From a virus, in the IMG/VR virus record IMGVR_UViG_3300042507_000546, positions 1 through 25,356 of that record: DNA of 25,356 bases; one strand, given 5' to 3'. Position numbers and translations under genes: made by a program. Positions 12,402 to 24,870 of this stretch are shown in pieces. Every line of letters starts with the position of its first letter. The first letter of the stretch is position 1. The notes beneath the pieces were generated by a model. The model was not told the origin of the DNA, searched no databases, and worked only from the letters and a program-made list of their open reading frames with translations.

Positions 12402-13097
12402 CAAAGTAGCCCTCCTCTCTTGGAGGGTTATTTTTTGTCCCTTATACATACCTGCACCCAATTCATCTATTTTCTCAAAGGGTATTACTGGTTGTGCTAA
12501 TTCGCAATCTTTATCAATTAAATAAACATATTTTAATTGGTAGCCAGTTAATAGCTCAACTTCATAGCCACGCTCTTTTAATTTTGGTATGTCGCTTTTT
12601 TTAAGAAAAGAACTTGTTAAGCCCATATCGTAGGTTTTTTTAATATGCGATACCTGACCATTTATTTTACATATTCCTGCATTGCTCGCTATCCCAACTA
12701 ACTTAAACCCGCTTGCCCTATAAATAGTACCATCACCGCATTGAGTACCATCGCTAAAACTAATAACCCATTTAATGTGCGGGGCGTGCTTTTTTATTAA
12801 TCGTATGGTGATTGCAATACAGCGGCTCTCCGAATACTTGGGTAGGTAGTCATCAAAGGCCATACGGTTAAGTTCTATAAACTCATTCCAGCCGGTATTC
12901 TTAACAAGGTTGATGGTTCCATTCTTGTTAATGCTTGGGCCATAACTCAATACCCCGTGTAACTTGTCATCTAAAAAGCAACCAAAGTGCAGGGTGCTGT
13001 TTGGAACTACCTTTCCAGAGTAGTGATGCTTCTTAACAAACTCGTTAGCAATCTTGGCGGGTATTACCTTAACAATTATTTCCTTTGCTCTGCCCAT
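12369..13097 (-). CDS. mom: Mom-like DNA adenine modification protein
   Basis: The 242-residue protein carries the pattern of phage Mu Mom and its relatives in the GNAT-like fold: HHYSGK (24-29), WNEFIELNRMAF (70-81) and FSDGTQCGDGTIYRASGF (114-131). Mu Mom adds a carbamoylmethyl group to the N6 of adenine in phage DNA and so blocks many restriction enzymes. Its start overlaps the ParB-like stop, so they are probably coupled. The coding sequence is visibly more AT-rich than its neighbours, suggesting recent acquisition. Its last 11 codons and stop run antisense to the tRNA-like gene, and its 3' end also covers that gene's terminator. Family call is firm; exact modification is inferred. Confidence 0.85.
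   Translation of the reverse strand: MGRAKEIIVKVIPAKIANEFVKKHHYSGKVVPNSTLHFGCFLDDKLHGVLSYGPSINKNGTINLVKNTGWNEFIELNRMAFDDYLPKYSESRCIAITIRLIKKHAPHIKWVISFSDGTQCGDGTIYRASGFKLVGIASNAGICKINGQVSHIKKTYDMGLTSSFLKKSDIPKLKERGYEVELLTGYQLKYVYLIDKDCELAQPVIPFEKIDELGAGMYKGQKITLQERRATLSEEVDSNATS
12408..12436 (+). terminator. Rho-independent terminator after the tRNA-like gene
   Basis: AGCCCTCC (12408-12415) pairs with GGAGGGTT (12422-12429), including one G-T pair, around loop TCTCTT. It is followed by A and six T (12431-12436). The T-run is only on the plus-strand side, so it ends rightward transcription seven bases after the tRNA-like gene. It lies inside the 3' end of the mom-like gene on the other strand. 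Confidence 0.8.
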
Positions 13098-13669
13098 TGC
13101 ATAATAATTAAGTAGAGTGCATTACCATTGCTATTCTCATTCCCAAAGGTTTCGCAGTATTTGTAATCGTCTGTTGCTTTAATATCTGCGATTGCATTCT
13201 TTATTTGCTCGGCCTGCTCATCTGCAAGAGTGAAGGTCATTTGCTGGAACGGGGACTTATCCCCATCTGGCAAAGAGAACTCCTCGTTAAATTCTTCTGC
13301 CTTTAAGTCAAAGCCACCAATATCAAGTCCCCAATCGGTAATTGAGGCAGCATCCCATTCGTTTGCTAATAAGTCCCAATCCCATTCACCGAACCCTACA
13401 TTGTCTTTGATTATGAACTCCGCTTGTTGCTCCTCCGTTAGGTTATCGGCAATAACAATCGGCACTTCTTTAAGTCCTGCGGCCTTACACGCCTTTAAGC
13501 GCATATTGCCACCCAACACCACCATATTTGCATCCACAACAATAGGACGCAGCTCAAGCATCTGGGGGAACTCTTGGATTGATTTTACGAGCTTTTTGAA
13601 TTTATCGTCTTTGATAATTCGTGGGTTGCTCGCATTGGGAACCACTTGGGTAATTGGTACTATTTGCAT
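13076..13669 (-). CDS. ParB-like N-terminal domain protein (phage type)
   Basis: The 197-residue protein begins with a ParB/Sulfiredoxin-like nuclease domain: NPRIIKDDKFKKLVKSI (15-31), RPIVVD (41-46) and VVLGGNMRLKACKAAG (50-65, the GxxR box). The C-terminal part (about 95-197) is acidic and unassigned. Phage ParB-like proteins are often next to or fused with DNA methyltransferases and modification enzymes, where they may bind or nick DNA; this one sits between a glycosyltransferase and Mom. It is unlikely to be a partition protein, since no ParA is present. Confidence 0.8.
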   Translation of the reverse strand: MQIVPITQVVPNASNPRIIKDDKFKKLVKSIQEFPQMLELRPIVVDANMVVLGGNMRLKACKAAGLKEVPIVIADNLTEEQQAEFIIKDNVGFGEWDWDLLANEWDAASITDWGLDIGGFDLKAEEFNEEFSLPDGDKSPFQQMTFTLADEQAEQIKNAIADIKATDDYKYCETFGNENSNGNALYLIIMQWAEQRK

Positions 13670-14625: not shown

Positions 14626-15158
14626 CTTAGATAATTATAGTAACAAAGATAGTCCCTAAGCGTCTTAATCTTTGGGTTGCGTTTCATTAGCTCCTGTGCA
14701 AACAAACCGTCTGCTTCGTATCTGTATTCAAATCTTGCTTTGCCGATAAAACCAAGCCGAGCCATATAAGAGGCCGTGTCGATTGTTCCCACTCTGGGCG
14801 ATTCGGTAGCGTGAAGGCGTGGGTCTCCATTGCGAAATACTTGCCCCCAGTTTACAAAGTCCTCCGTGCTATCCTTGACGGCTTCAAACCAGTTCGGGTG
14901 AATAATGTTATCGTCGTCCAATATGTAAATGTAGTCGTTGTCGCTTGCGGACGCTTGCAAGTAGTCAAGTGCCATATTCCGAAGCGGATTGCCAAAGGCC
15001 CCGCCAAGGTTAGACCGTACTACCTTTACGCCTTTGGGTACTTCTTTCTTTTTGGTGGAATAGTCCATAAAGACTGTCCAAGTGCAGCCAGCGGGAATTG
15101 TCTCCCTTAAGTGTTCTAAGTTCTCGGGTCGTGAGCAAGGTGTAATAATGTGTATCAT
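14622..15158 (-). CDS. Glycosyltransferase, family 2-like (GT-A)
   Basis: The 178-residue protein begins IHIITPCSRPENLEHL, the usual GT2 strand-loop-helix. It has YIYILDDDNIIHPNWF (about 96-111) with the DxD metal-binding motif, and a downstream WGQVFRNG region. It is shorter than typical GT2 enzymes (about 230-300 residues), so only the nucleotide-binding core is present. The start overlaps the methyltransferase stop by one base (TAATG), and the next transferase is ATGA-coupled, so the two probably act in sequence. Acceptor unknown. Confidence 0.8.
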   Translation of the reverse strand: MIHIITPCSRPENLEHLRETIPAGCTWTVFMDYSTKKKEVPKGVKVVRSNLGGAFGNPLRNMALDYLQASASDNDYIYILDDDNIIHPNWFEAVKDSTEDFVNWGQVFRNGDPRLHATESPRVGTIDTASYMARLGFIGKARFEYRYEADGLFAQELMKRNPKIKTLRDYLCYYNYLR

Positions 15159-15796
15159 TAGAACATAGTTAGTTGAGCGATATGGTCTTTTATTCGTTTG
15201 CTTGTTGCTGCAAAATAGTCTTTATCTATTTCGTATGCCGTTAAGTCGTATCCTTTATTGTGACAGGCAAGCGCAATACTTCCAGAACCAAGATGCGTAT
15301 CGAGTATCGTGTCTCCTTGCTTTGCGTAATTATGCAACAACCACTCGTATAGCTTTACGGGCTTCTGTGTTGGGTGTATTCTTTTTTCTTGTAAGTAGTT
15401 GTTTTGAATTGGAATAGCAACTTTTTTCAAAGAACAATCAAAAGAAGTCCAAGCCAACTCACCAGCGGAAAAAGGCACGTCACCAGTAATTATTTTATCC
15501 CAAAAAATCCAACCTGTTTTATTTGTAAGCTTGTCTATAAAATTATTAGCACCCCAAATTATTTGATTTTTTGAAACCCTAAATAGTTCTATAAAATAAT
15601 CTTCATTCGGACTTTCTTTATCCCAATCTTTACTTTGGTGCTTTCTTTTTTCTCCCTTTCTCACGCCCATATTCATATTTACATTTATTCCGTACGGAGG
15701 GTCAATAATAGCCAAGTCAAACGAGTTGTCTGGCATCTTCCTCAATGCCTCTAAACAGTCCTCGTTATAGATTCTTATTTTATCCGTTATTTCCAT
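15158..15796 (-). CDS. DNA adenine N6-methyltransferase
   Basis: The 212-residue enzyme has the catalytic DPPY motif at 32-35 and, later, the S-adenosylmethionine-binding region LDTHLGSGS (165-173). HPTQKP (141-146) precedes it. This order (motif IV before motif I) is the beta-class arrangement of N6-adenine/N4-cytosine methyltransferases, and DPPY favours adenine. No target-recognition domain is obvious, and no cognate nuclease is adjacent, so it is probably an anti-restriction orphan enzyme. The central part (15400-15680) is AT-rich relative to its surroundings. Confidence 0.9.
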   Translation of the reverse strand: MEITDKIRIYNEDCLEALRKMPDNSFDLAIIDPPYGINVNMNMGVRKGEKRKHQSKDWDKESPNEDYFIELFRVSKNQIIWGANNFIDKLTNKTGWIFWDKIITGDVPFSAGELAWTSFDCSLKKVAIPIQNNYLQEKRIHPTQKPVKLYEWLLHNYAKQGDTILDTHLGSGSIALACHNKGYDLTAYEIDKDYFAATSKRIKDHIAQLTMF

Positions 15797-19222: not shown

Positions 19223-19628
19223 AGGCAGTATATACAGAACGCAACTCCTCTACCCATTGCTTCCAGAGCTTCGGGTTGCATCCGCAAGGAACGTGGTATT
19301 GGTGGTTAAATACTCGTGCGTGGATTGTTGCTATTTCCTTGGTTTGCTCTGCCGACAAGGTGCTTTTGTATTCCTTGTAGAATTGGTCAAGCCATTTGTA
19401 TTCCGGCTCCTCCAAGCATTTAGGATTCTTGCTTGGGAATAACCGGTTTAACTTTTCCTTGCGAGCTTCGCATCCGCAGTCCACTCCGGTTGCTTCGGCA
19501 AACCAATCGACTACCGCCTTGATACCGGTAGCTTCGGTTATCTGCTCGATTCTATCCCCCAGTCCCTTTGGCTTCCGCCCACGTTTGGTACTCGCTGTCG
19601 CAGTTGGCTTTGATTTTGTCTCTTCCAT
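19206..19628 (-). CDS. Conserved phage protein with GLGD...DCGC motif
   Basis: The 140-residue protein begins with a Lys/Thr/Ser-rich tail and KRGRKPKGLGDRIEQIT (15-31), then ATGVDCGCEARKEKLNRLFP (46-65) and VPCGCNPKLWKQWVEEL (113-129). Cys51, Cys53, Cys115 and Cys117 could bind a metal. GRKPKG resembles an AT-hook. This GLGD...TGIK...DCGC...RKxxLNxLFP pattern recurs in Bacteroidetes phages, from memory, without a known function. Its start lies 76 bases inside the sigma-like gene, an unusually long overlap. Confidence 0.75.
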   Translation of the reverse strand: MEETKSKPTATASTKRGRKPKGLGDRIEQITEATGIKAVVDWFAEATGVDCGCEARKEKLNRLFPSKNPKCLEEPEYKWLDQFYKEYKSTLSAEQTKEIATIHARVFNHQYHVPCGCNPKLWKQWVEELRSVYTAYEPVG

Positions 19629-20088
19629 TTTTTAGCGTATTGTAAATAGACCTTAAAGAAATCTTTGTTGCCTCGGATAACTTGCGAAGCGATACGTCCC
19701 CGTTATGGTAAATCGTAAAGAGTTTGTTGTCGTACCAATCCCATTTAGATACTTCACCATTTACAGCTTCCAGAAGTACGGTAAGTGCTTGGTCGGATTC
19801 TATATTGTAAATTTCTTCCTTATCGTCGAACTCCTCGATTGATACGAATTTAATTCTTGCTCGGTTGGTCATCTCCCGCAGGTACATATTGCGCAGGGTA
19901 ATGTAAACGAAAAACGTGTTAACGTCATCGTCTCCGTATTCGAGCTTTTCGGGATTATCCACGTACTGATGCAACCGTAAGTACATATCTTGTACGAGGT
20001 CGTGAGCATCGTCCCGGTCAAGACCGAAGGACTTTGCCATACGCAGCCAATCGTCGTGCCGCTTTGCTAATCGGGGTAGGATTCCCAT
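19552..20088 (-). CDS. Phage sigma factor-like protein
   Basis: ATG 20088 gives 178 residues; the open frame extends to a TTG at 20142 across a neighbouring small gene. Residues 20-75 (GLDRDDAHDLVQDMYLRL and FFVYITLRNMYLREM) look like sigma region 2, and 131-160 (VSLRKLSEATKISLRSIYN) like the region 4 helix-turn-helix. It could redirect host RNA polymerase to late promoters; none of the TAnnTTTG boxes needs it. It could instead be a DNA-binding transcription activator. Confidence 0.75.
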   Translation of the reverse strand: MGILPRLAKRHDDWLRMAKSFGLDRDDAHDLVQDMYLRLHQYVDNPEKLEYGDDDVNTFFVYITLRNMYLREMTNRARIKFVSIEEFDDKEEIYNIESDQALTVLLEAVNGEVSKWDWYDNKLFTIYHNGDVSLRKLSEATKISLRSIYNTLKNGRDKIKANCDSEYQTWAEAKGTGG

Positions 20089-20207
20089 AAAACTTCGACT
20101 AATATAAGGCCAAGGCAAATCTCCAACGTATGTACGTCGCAATCTTCAAACTCGGTCTTACTCCAGTTAGCCCCAAGAAGAAACCCGTACAACGGGTAAA
20201 AATTCAT
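20067..20207 (-). CDS. Small hypothetical protein (46 aa)
   Basis: ATG 20207-20205 to TAG 20069-20067 encodes 46 residues beginning MNFYPLYGFLLGANWSKTEF and ending CLGLILVEVLWESYPD. It fills the space between the DnaA-like and sigma-like genes, starts two bases after the upstream stop and overlaps the sigma start by 22 bases. It is moderately hydrophobic. No family recognised. Confidence 0.65.
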   Translation of the reverse strand: MNFYPLYGFLLGANWSKTEFEDCDVHTLEICLGLILVEVLWESYPD

Positions 20208-20208
20208 A

Positions 20209-20601
20209 CTAAACCCCATTTACAAATTGTTTAAGCGTTGCCAACTTCGCCTCCAAGTCCTTTACTTGTTGTACCAATTCAGCATTCCGTTCTAACAAAT
20301 AATCGTAATTGATAACCTTCGTAACCATTACCTCGTCCTCGTCAACTTGAGGTTCCGGAATATCGCCCCGTAATTTTTCTGCTATATCGTATGCTGATTC
20401 GTAGAACTTGTCCCGTGGGAACTTCAATTTTAGATAATGAATAATTGTGGCGTGGGACTTGCCCATTTGGTTTCCCAGTTGCTCCAAGGTAAAAAACGGA
20501 CGGAATGCCTTTGCGTATGCGGTTCGGATTTTTACGTTATTCCAATCTCGGCGGCCATTATCCTTGTAGCCGATATTCTGGCAAAATTGCTTGTAATTCA
20601 T
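20209..20601 (-). CDS. DnaA domain IV-like helix-turn-helix protein
   Basis: The 130-residue protein has FTLEQLGNQMGKSHATIIHYLKL (roughly 37-59), matching the DnaA C-terminal pattern in which an Arg/Lys-x-H-x-T/A-I/V motif reads the DnaA box. A Glu/Leu coiled coil follows (about 100-125). It lacks an ATPase domain, so it is not full DnaA. It may bind phage origin sites such as the repeat region at 23824-24007 and load the ATPase encoded nearby (inference). Confidence 0.65.
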   Translation of the reverse strand: MNYKQFCQNIGYKDNGRRDWNNVKIRTAYAKAFRPFFTLEQLGNQMGKSHATIIHYLKLKFPRDKFYESAYDIAEKLRGDIPEPQVDEDEVMVTKVINYDYLLERNAELVQQVKDLEAKLATLKQFVNGV

Positions 20602-20813: not shown

Positions 20814-21127
20814 ATCGTAAGATTTTCTTTGATTTGTAAAAGCTCTTTTTTTAGCTCATCAATCTCAATAGCACGTTCCCGATTCTGAATAAGCAAGCGG
20901 GCGTTTTCAACCCGTGCCTCGTTAATACGTTTGTCCAAGTGCCGCTTCATATCTACCATATCCTCCAGCATTTGCGTTGCACGCCATACGGATAACATAT
21001 AGTCGACTACGTGCTTTTCGTTTGGGTTAGCCAACGCCATCTCGTTTAACCACCGAACAACGTCGCTTACTTGCAGGATTTTATCCCGCATATAAATCTC
21101 CCAGGAATCTTGACTAAAATGGGTCAT
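20810..21127 (-). CDS. Coiled-coil protein next to the replication ATPase
   Basis: The 105-residue protein has an N-terminal helix with conserved-looking WLNEMALANPNEKHVV (25-40) and a C-terminal coiled coil of Arg, Glu, Ile and Leu (about 62-103). Its start overlaps the ATPase stop by 14 bases, suggesting coupled translation and perhaps a helicase-loading or accessory role, which is inference. Confidence 0.7.
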   Translation of the reverse strand: MTHFSQDSWEIYMRDKILQVSDVVRWLNEMALANPNEKHVVDYMLSVWRATQMLEDMVDMKRHLDKRINEARVENARLLIQNRERAIEIDELKKELLQIKENLTI

Positions 21128-22052
21128 CGCTATAAATTATAGTTTGAATAGGTGCTTGAACATCGAGCAAGTTAAGGTTGTTATATGTAAATCCAACATT
21201 GCCTTTCATTGAACGGATGCGGATGGGTTCGGACAAAGGCGTTGGCCTTCCACCCGTTTCCATCTCTTTTGTTTTGCGTACGTGAATCTCGGTAAATACC
21301 CAGTCAGTTAAGTGCTGTGCGTAGCGGTGAATGATAACAACCGAATCGGCACGGTTGCCCCATTTACCGCCTCCTTCAATATCCGAGGTCATTGGTGGGG
21401 TTGGAAGCCCTGCGTATGTATGCCCGTTGGGATGCGTGCGGCGCATTGCTTCCGTAACCGGGTGCGTGTTAACAATCGTTGTAACGGCGTTCTTGTGGGC
21501 GAAGATTCGCACGGCAGACGCTACCTCGTAATGGTACTCGTGCATCCCAGTTTTACCAAGTTTCTTTTGGTCTGTGGTAAGCGAGTTGTACGGGTCTATC
21601 AGGCATCCGGTGTACTGCCACTCCTCGTGGATTTCCTCCATTACCCGAAGCAGGTCGAATGCGTTGTAAAGATTATTGCTATCAATGAAACGAAAATGCT
21701 CATCAATGTAATCAAGGTGGCGATACATCTTGGCCTCCGTTACGTTCTGTATTGGCTCGCAGGAAAGGAACTCAATCAGCTTGCGCTTTAACGAGTGAAC
21801 CTCGTTCTCCGAGGAATAGATAAGCCACTTCTTATCAAAGTTCATAGTTTGCATCAGCATCAGGTAAATCAGCGTATGCGTCTTGCCAACGTTGGCGTGG
21901 CCGGTTACAACTACAAACTCGCCGTCCTTGAATCGTAGGAACTCATCTACTGCCGGGTGGCCAAGTTTACCGGTATCGTAGTATTTGCCGCCTCTTGCTC
22001 TTTCAAGGAACGGCAATACCTTTTCGTTAGGAATTAGGTCAGGGTGTTTCAT
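21114..22052 (-). CDS. RecA/DnaB-type replicative ATPase
   Basis: The 312-residue protein is a RecA-fold ATPase. Walker A is GHANVGKT (51-58), Walker B the strand CLIDPYNSL (150-158), and IVNTHPV follows as the sensor strand. A C-terminal basic region contains HVRKTKEMETGG. The pattern is closest to DnaB helicase C-terminal domains (SF4). No primase or polymerase is present in the window, so the phage would rely on host enzymes. The last residues YSDDPF resemble the acidic SSB C-terminal tip (see findings). The ATG is only four bases from a TAnnTTTG box. Confidence 0.8.
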   Translation of the reverse strand: MKHPDLIPNEKVLPFLERARGGKYYDTGKLGHPAVDEFLRFKDGEFVVVTGHANVGKTHTLIYLMLMQTMNFDKKWLIYSSENEVHSLKRKLIEFLSCEPIQNVTEAKMYRHLDYIDEHFRFIDSNNLYNAFDLLRVMEEIHEEWQYTGCLIDPYNSLTTDQKKLGKTGMHEYHYEVASAVRIFAHKNAVTTIVNTHPVTEAMRRTHPNGHTYAGLPTPPMTSDIEGGGKWGNRADSVVIIHRYAQHLTDWVFTEIHVRKTKEMETGGRPTPLSEPIRIRSMKGNVGFTYNNLNLLDVQAPIQTIIYSDDPF

Positions 22053-22056
22053 AGGG

Positions 22057-22064
22057 CAAACGTA
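22057..22064 (-). promoter_or_regulatory. Promoter box immediately before the ATPase start (leaderless)
   Basis: TACGTTTG (minus strand, 22064-22057) fits TAnnTTTG and ends four bases before ATG 22052. Initiation would fall at the start codon, predicting a leaderless mRNA. The -33 element is weak (TTTG 15 bases upstream). It follows a strong terminator, supporting a fresh start of transcription. Confidence 0.6.
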
Positions 22065-22095
22065 AACAAAAAATCAATACAAAAAATCATTGGGC

Positions 22096-22122
22096 AAAAA
22101 AAAGCCCCTCCGGAGAGGGGCT
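22096..22122 (-). terminator. Strong rho-independent terminator after the SSB-like gene
   Basis: On the minus strand AGCCCCTC (22122-22115) pairs with GAGGGGCT (22110-22103) around a four-base loop TCCG, followed by seven further T (22102-22096). It lies about 25 bases after the stop at 22146 and before the next promoter. Confidence 0.9.
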
Positions 22123-22145
22123 AAAAACCAGTCATTATGAAACAC

Positions 22146-23305: not shown

Positions 23306-23537
23306 AATCTTCGAGTTGTTGGAGTTCACGTTGTAGGTGGATTATTGCTTTGGTAATATCTTGCTCGGCAGGATTGCCGTCCTTCTTTCCAGCACGAAGC
23401 AGGTAGGCGATTGCTACGCCGAGGTTGTAATTATCGTGGGCAAAGTCCTGCACCACGTCAAACGCCTCAATGCCTTTGAATTTGCCGATGTAGTAATCAG
23501 GCGTCCCAGTAGATAAACACTTGGTGGAATCCTTCAT
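23229..23537 (-). CDS. DUF3310-like phage protein
   Basis: The 102-residue protein has YYIGKFKGIEAFDVV (15-29), the segment NLGVAIAYLLRAGKK (38-52) and DITKAIIHLQRELQ (about 60-73). This is the Y-x-x-F-x-GIE...LG-x-AI-x-YLLRAG-K pattern of DUF3310, a family of small early phage proteins often called nucleotide kinase-like, though no kinase activity can be read here. The C-terminal 25 residues lie over the next gene. ATGA links it to the upstream gene. Confidence 0.75.
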   Translation of the reverse strand: MKDSTKCLSTGTPDYYIGKFKGIEAFDVVQDFAHDNYNLGVAIAYLLRAGKKDGNPAEQDITKAIIHLQRELQQLEDYAVLYQPGNKEADRYDSVGGCDSFR

Positions 23538-23722
23538 TGGTCAAAGTTTTTCTTTCCTGCTTCCCAGGTGTTGTACTTGGCGATTGCTGCTGCTTCGTTT
23601 TCGCTTCTTGGATAGTCGCAGAATCCGAAGTGGTTAAGGAATGCGTTTGTGTAGTCATTGGGAATTTGTTTCAATTCCATTGCAAGATACTTCTTGCGTC
23701 GGTCGTTTCTTTCTGTTGCCAT
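23534..23722 (-). CDS. Hypothetical first gene of the early operon (62 aa)
   Basis: The product begins MATERNDRRKKYLAMELK, has a basic N-terminus, and a middle FLNHFGFCDYPRSENEAAA. It is the first gene after the AT-rich control region, and its ATG is four bases from a TAnnTTTG box, so it would be made from a leaderless transcript early. No family recognised; small basic first genes are often host-takeover or regulatory factors (inference). Confidence 0.65.
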   Translation of the reverse strand: MATERNDRRKKYLAMELKQIPNDYTNAFLNHFGFCDYPRSENEAAAIAKYNTWEAGKKNFDQ

Positions 23723-23726
23723 ATTG

Positions 23727-23734
23727 CAAACCTA
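23727..23734 (-). promoter_or_regulatory. Early promoter box directly before the first early gene
   Basis: TAGGTTTG (minus strand, 23734-23727) fits TAnnTTTG. Four bases (CAAT) separate it from ATG 23722, so a leaderless mRNA is predicted. The -33 region has only a weak ATTG/TTGG element upstream. Confidence 0.55.
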
Positions 23735-23823
23735 AAACAGAAAGCAATAGGTCTAACCAATGTAGATAACTAAAAATTTTTCAACATTTGTCGGGCGTAT
23801 GCGCCCAATACTTATTTTTTACA

Positions 23824-23913
23824 AGTTAGTTAAGTTAACTAGTTATATAACTAACTAACTATATAACTTAAATATCTAACTTAACTATCAAGTTAACTAA
23901 CTAACTTGAGTTA
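23824..23913. repeat. Array of TAACT/AGTTA pentamers in both orientations
   Basis: About 16 copies of TAACT or its complement AGTTA lie within 90 bases, several in tandem (TAACTAACTAACT twice). The array contains a perfect 12-base palindrome AGTTATATAACT (23841-23852) and a hairpin CAAGTTA-N6-TAACTTG (23889-23908). It looks like closely packed protein-binding sites (iteron- or operator-like). Unit size and lack of spacers rule out CRISPR. Confidence 0.75.
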
Positions 23914-23935
23914 AAATTAAAAATAAAAGAAAATT

Positions 23936-24007
23936 TGCGTTTACACGCATTTTATTAGTCAAGTGGTACAATCTATCCAATTTAGATAGATAATGCGTTA
24001 AAACGCA
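23936..24007. repeat. Three palindromes: TGCGT-N4-ACGCA twice, flanking ATCTATC-N7-GATAGAT
   Basis: TGCGT-TTAC-ACGCA lies at 23936-23949 and TGCGT-TAAA-ACGCA at 23994-24007, with start points 58 bases apart. Between them, at 23971-23991, is ATCTATC-CAATTTA-GATAGAT, a seven-pair inverted repeat. Two equal outer palindromes around a different central one suggest paired binding sites for a dimeric regulator or initiator. Confidence 0.7.
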
Positions 24008-24019
24008 CCTAAAGCACCT

Positions 24020-24430
24020 CTATTGCCTTATTAGGACTATAAGCAACATACCAACTGCAAACACCATTAGGTATTTCTCCCAATCACCTTTTCCATTGGT
24101 CGCAATCTTGGTGTTAATGTACTTGGTTACTTGCACCGTATCTGGCAAGCACGTCGCTTGCAATCGGATGGTATCAAAGTTTCTAACAATCTTAATCCGA
24201 ATGTTGTCCTTTTGGACAACTACGGTATCTACATTGTTAAGCGTAAGCGTATCCCATAAGTTACGTTCCTTGGTTACGATTGTGGTATCCCACTTCGTCT
24301 GCCAAACATTAGCACCTTTCTTTACGGCTTGGCGCAAATGATATTCAGCACTACAACTACCCAGAGCAAGACTCGCAATCAGGATTATCAATGCTGCAAG
24401 CAGGGGGTGTGGGTATTTCTTCAAGCTCAT
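24020..24430 (-). CDS. Unimolecular spanin-like lipoprotein (u-spanin)
   Basis: The 136-residue protein has an N-terminal signal with lipobox LGSC (Cys26) after a hydrophobic helix (residues 10-24), a periplasmic middle of Thr/Asp/Val beta-strand type, and a C-terminal hydrophobic segment (about 117-134, YLMVFAVGMLLIVLI). An outer-membrane lipid anchor plus an inner-membrane helix on one chain is the u-spanin layout, which fuses or disrupts the outer membrane at the last step of lysis. It directly follows the endolysin gene. Family homology was not tested; it could be a generic phage lipoprotein. Confidence 0.7.
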   Translation of the reverse strand: MSLKKYPHPLLAALIILIASLALGSCSAEYHLRQAVKKGANVWQTKWDTTIVTKERNLWDTLTLNNVDTVVVQKDNIRIKIVRNFDTIRLQATCLPDTVQVTKYINTKIATNGKGDWEKYLMVFAVGMLLIVLIRQ

Positions 24431-24441
24431 TCAGCCAGTCG

Positions 24442-24870
24442 TTAAAATTGGACGTATTTTGTTTTTCCACCTTTCTTAATTGCTTTTAATACTTCTCCTT
24501 TGTTATTTGTAGCGTCGTAGGCAACGTGAATCCACTTCGGTTGAGCATCGGTACCAAATTCCCAAATAAGTTGCTTAAACGGCAGATTCTTGCGTATGTA
24601 CTTAAATACCGAAGCCATATCCTCGCATTGGATGTCCGCAGCCCTTCCGTGTACGTGGTCGCTTGTTGCACTACCGCCTACCGAAGAGTTTACTCCCGGT
24701 GAACGGAATCCACTCGTTACGTTTATCACCCCGAACTTATCCCGCACCGGTTGCAGGACTTTCTGCACCAATAGTTTTAGATTGCGGATTTCCTCTTGGC
24801 TTGGATTGTTGGGCAAACCGGTATCCGTATCCGTAAACTCCGAAAGCATAAAGTCCTTTGAAAGTCGCAT
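24442..24870 (-). CDS. Endolysin: M15-family D-Ala-type peptidase
   Basis: The 142-residue enzyme has SGFRSPGVN (53-61), SDHVHGRAADI (70-80) with zinc ligands His72 and Asp79, IWEFG with Glu104 (catalytic candidate), and WIHVAY with His115. This is the VanY/M15_3 set that cleaves peptide cross-links in peptidoglycan. No signal peptide is present, so it needs the holins to cross the inner membrane. An 87-base stretch without a gene lies upstream. Confidence 0.9.
   Translation of the reverse strand: MRLSKDFMLSEFTDTDTGLPNNPSQEEIRNLKLLVQKVLQPVRDKFGVINVTSGFRSPGVNSSVGGSATSDHVHGRAADIQCEDMASVFKYIRKNLPFKQLIWEFGTDAQPKWIHVAYDATNNKGEVLKAIKKGGKTKYVQF

Follow-up and report, generated by a model that had tools for sequence, protein, structure and literature searches.

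The main non-coding control region and candidate replication origin of a one-strand Bacteroidota-type phage

The junction at which the lysis operon gives way to the early/replication operon serves as the chief non-coding control region of the phage genome described here, and it is most likely also the replication origin, a reading given a probability of about 0.5. The location of early control in this region is near certain, and that function for it is likely. Sequence and comparison among relatives establish its position, its conservation, a promoter box, a repeat array of extreme helical instability, and the pairing of a GC-rich hairpin. The origin estimate goes no higher because GC skew, DnaA boxes, and iterons gave negative results.

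The window, the whole 25,356-bp virus record that was analysed, carries nearly all of its convincing genes on the minus strand. Inspection of its ORFs delimits a gene-free stretch at 23723-24019 (297 bp, 28% GC) on the late/early junction, which lacks a conserved ORF and occupies the same place in the versions compared. An earlier note made from the window had recognized this stretch as gene-free and put it at about 285 bases; the gap is slightly longer than that because the first early ORF begins at 23722 on the minus strand.

With its 25.4 kb, the window represents part of an uncultured, one-strand, circularly permuted phage of Bacteroidota type whose genome measures 29-31 kb. Relatives of 29-31 kb have end overlaps at differing map positions, so their maps are circularly permuted and the window therefore lacks about 4 kb. 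Along the minus strand, an endolysin gene (24442-24870; phrog_894, E 2.4e-34) and a small gene encoding 136 aa (24020-24430), the last of the lysis cassette and spanin-like by position without a family match, precede the non-coding region. The early block follows with a 62-aa gene (23534-23722), a DUF3310 protein, a RusA-like resolvase, a small protein, a DnaB-like replicative helicase (21114-22052; phrog_18375, E 2.8e-39, with a DnaB_C match below the Pfam cut-off), and a small DnaA-like protein (20209-20601). An ECF-like sigma factor (19552-20142, minus strand), a candidate for late promoter recognition, and further genes come after it, down to the terminase and structural genes. A ParB-like/methyltransferase-associated protein (13076-13669) and a DNA methyltransferase (15158-15796), both on the minus strand, are encoded upstream of the terminase genes. 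The region lies upstream of the replication genes (RusA-like, DnaB-like helicase), and every relative has the lysis genes on one side of it and the early block (RusA-like, DnaB-like helicase, DnaA-IV-like) on the other. The genome is compact, with few other gaps.

The family has many members among environmental virus contigs. No close relative was found among named phages at the DNA level, and the region itself gave named-phage matches at chance level only. The nearest named helicase relative belongs to Maribacter phage Panino (36%), and the nearest terminase relatives are those of Phocaeicola/Bacteroides phages (about 37%) and a fecal phage (42%). A search of bacterial genomes with the helicase found no prophage or host.

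Conservation of the repeats in related phages had been named in the earlier note as a test, which the region passes: it is kept in 46 distinct versions as well as in more distant relatives. Extracted from each relative as the DNA that separates the final lysis gene from the first early one, the gap is conserved in position and measures 278-304 bp in 44 of the 46. Its aligned parts are a conserved lysis-side segment of about 95 bp, a T-rich tract, the array, and a strongly conserved early-side part that reads GTAAAAAATAAG-hairpin-dyad-TAGGTTTGCAAT-ATG. Four contigs (two distinct versions) carry an insert of about 350 bp with an antisense ORF between the lysis-side part and the array, both of which survive it; fixed spacing between them is therefore unnecessary. 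By reading, the inserted ORF looks like an HNH homing endonuclease. Such HNH-like inserts occur in the control regions of L018 (2377-3012), L037 (2344-2984), L039, L062, and the distant L071 (5742-6462). Where helicase identity falls to about 72-75%, relatives have another first gene and another promoter, yet a lysis-side part and an AAGTT/AACTT array persist. At 45% helicase identity (G017), the corresponding place has an ATAT array framed by GC hairpins, and canonical terminators stand at its edges. One further contig of 43,471 bp, G013 (the contig of L133), carries two distinct terminase genes separated by 31 kb and is possibly a chimeric assembly of two relatives.

The array itself (23824-23913, minus strand) is about 79% AT and is a candidate DNA-unwinding element. 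The claim that 16 TAACT/AGTTA pentamers crowd into 90 bases was borne out: 17 occur in 23735-24019, and 16 of these fall within the 90 bp that start at 23824. After dinucleotide shuffling the region has 2.5 on average and 8 at most, the next densest 90 bp in the window has 3, and shuffles of the whole window reach no more than 4. A 4-base period, TTAG/CTAA, that runs in both orientations describes the unit better. Self-complementarity is significant in the window's array, with 65 six-mers whose reverse complement is present against 21 in shuffles; other arrays are less so (L044, p 0.12; G017, not significant). The array is retained in all 46 versions. Its sequence differs in almost every version of the alignment while its words and boundaries are kept.

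The 4-base period and a length that ranges from 71 to 102 bp among relatives might reflect neutral slippage, that is, a decaying, functionless microsatellite in an ordinary intergenic gap. Fixed boundaries, universal retention, repeats in both orientations, and the scarcity of other gaps in so compact a genome make this account very unlikely, as does the occurrence in G017 of an equivalent, easily melted array of other sequence.

Computed from nearest-neighbour energies, helix stability singles out the array. Within the window, no other segment of 60, 100, or 200 bp is as unstable: the array has -1.02 kcal/bp against -1.13 for the runner-up and a genome mean of -1.36. In a comparison of the window, six relatives with end overlaps, and five further relatives including G017, the array falls on the least stable 100 and 200 bp of the whole genome in 11 of 11 relatives, mostly with a large lead. 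The array of G017 has no meaningful sequence similarity to that of the window, yet it stands at the same place and is again the least stable DNA. Because the sequence of the array turns over and its instability is kept, a DNA-unwinding element is favoured and an origin is the best reading. Selection appears to have acted on easy melting, and perhaps on self-complementarity, rather than on exact sequence. No other single argument for an unwinding element is as strong as this kept instability, which still falls short of proof, as AT-rich promoter, terminator, and control regions tend to be the least stable DNA and the compared genomes share ancestry.

The main rival to an origin is a purely transcriptional control region, in which weak lysis-operon terminators, an AT-rich operator or UP-type array with its regulator, and a leaderless promoter would share the gap and replication would begin elsewhere. 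This rival is a tentative but serious alternative, and part of its support is the promoter. A -7-type box, TAGGTTTG, lies at 23727-23734 on the minus strand, 4 nt before the ATG at 23722, and TAGGTTTG-N4-ATG is near-invariant in 44 versions. The box satisfies TAnnTTTG, the -7 box of Bacteroidota sigma-A promoters (PMC6847099, PMC9723704). In such promoters the start site lies 4-5 nt downstream of the -7 consensus (PMC6847099), which would make the A of the ATG the first transcribed base; the early mRNA is accordingly predicted to be leaderless. Leaderless transcripts are a minority in flavobacteria, making up 5.5% of mRNAs in F. psychrophilum (PMC9723704). The first early gene, whose product is 60-90% identical in relatives from residue 1, is predicted to be driven by this region.

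The likeness to Bacteroidota sigma-A promoters resides in the box and its position 4 nt ahead of the predicted start, and the match has limits. Positions -10/-9 fail the TAHHTTTG consensus (PMC6847099), being GG in nearly all versions and CG in L021 and L035, whereas F. johnsoniae promoters almost never have G at the variable positions. The -33 element is also weak: a possible TTG at 23758-23760 (minus strand) lies 23 nt upstream of the -7 box, and at this spacing clade 1 has TTG and clade 2 has CTG. In the window's clade the helicase gene has a like arrangement, TACGTTTG-N4-ATG, behind a canonical terminator, which supports both boxes as phage early promoters. The earlier note had held that no familiar phage element explains the arrangement; it overlooked this promoter and the terminator-like character of some hairpins, although these simpler readings account for parts of the region only.

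A transcriptional account also draws on those terminator-like hairpins, on the canonical terminators at both edges of the AT array in G017 relatives, and on the ECF-like sigma factor that the phage encodes. It is harder to reconcile with an array that remains where the first gene and its promoter have been exchanged, and sequence turnover with kept instability suits a sequence-specific operator poorly. A point against the origin, on the other hand, is the placing of the promoter, which is downstream of the array and directed away from it; transcription into the array is therefore not predicted.

The lysis side of the region carries palindromes that are conserved within clades, with one arm replaced in some. 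There are exactly two copies of TGCGTNNNNACGCA in the window (23936-23949 and 23994-24007), and two equal TGCGT-N4-ACGCA palindromes around a third dyad are indeed present where the earlier note had placed them. Palindrome 1 (23994-24007, minus strand), 12 nt past the stop of the lysis gene, is kept in most relatives; it reads TGCA-TTCTAA-TGCA in L017 and L019, and its left arm is lost in the L007/L016/L115 group. The middle dyad, TCTATC-N7-GATAGA (23972-23990, minus strand), is seen in the sequence of the window; in the second clade another dyad, TACCAA-AA-TTGGTA, occupies almost this position. Palindrome 3 (23936-23949, minus strand) is followed by a T-rich tract, is invariant in clades 1-2, and is lost in clade 3. 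Judged as a GC-rich stem followed by a T tract, it is weakly terminator-like on both strands. Long-range pairing between palindromes 1 and 3 is 98% maintained in clades 1-2, with no covariation beyond shuffles there.

A core dyad between equal palindromes resembles an att arrangement, and the earlier note had offered a switch region as an alternative to a replication origin. A recombination or packaging site (att, inversion switch, or pac) was rejected and has only a negligible probability: no integrase or invertase was recognized, by length and match to the window, among the genes of the complete relative G006, no inverted forms were seen, and the terminase genes lie about 12 kb away. An origin or control function remains plausible by position, conservation, and melting; for a switch, no evidence of inversion or recombination was found.

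The early side holds the GC-rich hairpin that the earlier note had reported, GGGCG-CATA-CGCCC on the sense (minus) strand and GGGCG-TATG-CGCCC as written in the window (23793-23806). Its cells are 91% paired, two pairs have changed on both sides, and its covariation score exceeds 500 of 500 shuffles. In other clades it reads GGAGG-CATA-CCTCC, and the CATA loop is nearly constant. It is terminator-like on the opposite strand only.

These compensatory changes, together with a whole region that folds far better than shuffles (z = -6.1), could point to a structured non-coding RNA or a regulatory UTR transcribed from the lysis side. For 37 sequences of the lysis-side part RNAalifold gives no shared structure, no Rfam family matched, and pairing that survives sequence change is confined to the 7-bp GC hairpin. 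Array folding scores range between about -0.3 and -4.2 in different relatives and are alike on both strands, as expected of DNA dyads, and in four contigs a gene of about 350 bp is inserted between head and array. Conserved RNA structure was rejected as the main reading for want of a common fold, with covariation in the GC hairpin alone, and is improbable.

Beside the hairpin lies an imperfect dyad that had been missed earlier (23755-23792, arms AACCAATGTAGATAAC and TTTTCAACATTTGTC). Each arm holds a DnaA-box-like 9-mer, TTATCTACA on the minus strand and TTTTCAACA on the plus strand, and TTnTnnACA is invariant in both arms in 23 sequences. Covariation in this dyad does not exceed shuffles; arms kept in this manner might be a protein site. 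The DnaA-like arms are absent from distant relatives.

For an origin, what persists at greater distance is the array with the lysis-side head, despite replacement of the first gene and its promoter. Several negative results stand against an origin. A change in GC skew, one of the checks proposed in the earlier note, did not appear: in six complete relatives the skew range is not beyond block shuffles. In six genomes the AT-skew minima lie no more than about 1.3 kb from the region, mostly block-shuffle noise in genomes of shared ancestry. No DnaA-box cluster is present, as TTATCCACA with at most one mismatch is no denser in the region than elsewhere. A loose DnaA-trio pattern, too loose to discriminate, occurs in 41 of 44 versions against 13-24 of 44 shuffled, and a strict pattern in 13 of 44 against 1-4 shuffled. 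Iterons in the form of direct repeats of about 20 bp are absent from the array, whose repeat unit varies.

In G006, no polymerase, primase, or full initiator was recognized either, so host machinery must be directed to a site. Genes of this relative were named by inference from gene length and match to the window, the profile scan covering those shared with the window. The protein called DnaA-like in the earlier note (20209-20601, minus strand) has weak to moderate support as a stand-alone DNA-binding protein of DnaA domain-IV type and lacks the AAA+ domain. Its top PDB profile matches are DnaA, at an E-value of only 0.083. Its model matches the DnaA DNA-binding domain 3pvp (prob 0.93, TM 0.60 over the target); larger MarR-type proteins rank higher by E-value with poor TM-scores. 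The protein has a predicted long C-terminal helix and is conserved in the family.

A possible sequence of events can be proposed for the origin. Upon entry, the early promoter (TAGGTTTG) would fire from the A of the ATG to give a leaderless transcript. Proteins, possibly host DnaA or the phage DnaA-domain-IV-like protein, would bind the dyad beside the hairpin, and with negative supercoiling from early transcription they might melt the adjacent AT-rich TTAG/CTAA array, where the phage DnaB-like helicase would then be loaded. The lysis-side palindromes might close off late transcription or bind a further protein. A broader proposal, that the origin is family-wide, that its array is selected for easy melting while its words may change completely (TTAG/CTAA here, ATAT in distant relatives), and that opening is aided by the phage's stand-alone, ATPase-less DnaA-IV-like protein, which would work with host DnaA or load the phage helicase, is doubtful as a whole. 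If the region is an origin, its versions would form a compact natural variant set with scrambled sequence and kept melting for testing what an unwinding element needs, and a phage protein with DnaA domain IV only would be placed in a defined pathway.

Known origins offer partial parallels. In Lactococcus Ceduovirus phages (c2, bIL67, and 923 types), an origin has been shown experimentally in the non-coding early/late junction (PMC7150918). The likeness lies in a non-coding region between late and early modules whose sequence changes completely between origin types. In Ceduovirus, however, the modules are divergent, the origin lies between early promoters PE1 and PE2, and a non-coding transcript matters (PMC7150918), whereas here all genes run one way and the region is a candidate origin. 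A second early promoter of the Ceduovirus kind was not seen on reading the alignment, which has one conserved promoter-like box, downstream of the array. With bacterial oriC (DUE plus DnaA boxes/DnaA-trios, BUS; PMC8287927), the region shares an AT-rich melting segment beside a GC-rich segment and DnaA-box-like 9-mers; in contrast to oriC, it has two imperfect boxes only and its array steps 4 bases rather than 3, and unlike the BUS its trio pattern is loose and points at the promoter. Iteron origins of plasmids and phages likewise place a short-repeat array in an AT-rich gap, but as direct repeats of about 20 bp, whereas the words here are of five bases in both orientations and there is no recognized Rep-type initiator. 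In the literature searched, no replication origins of Bacteroidota phages were found for comparison, and they appear little described.

The helicase gene is provided with a canonical terminator and a promoter of its own, both in the window (22053-22145) and in relatives. In clade 2 and in distant relatives, a pair of complementary arms (CTGATTGGT..ACCAATCAG; TGTGTGTTT..AAACACACA) brackets this terminator and promoter; the sequences of the arms differ between clades, but their complementarity stays.
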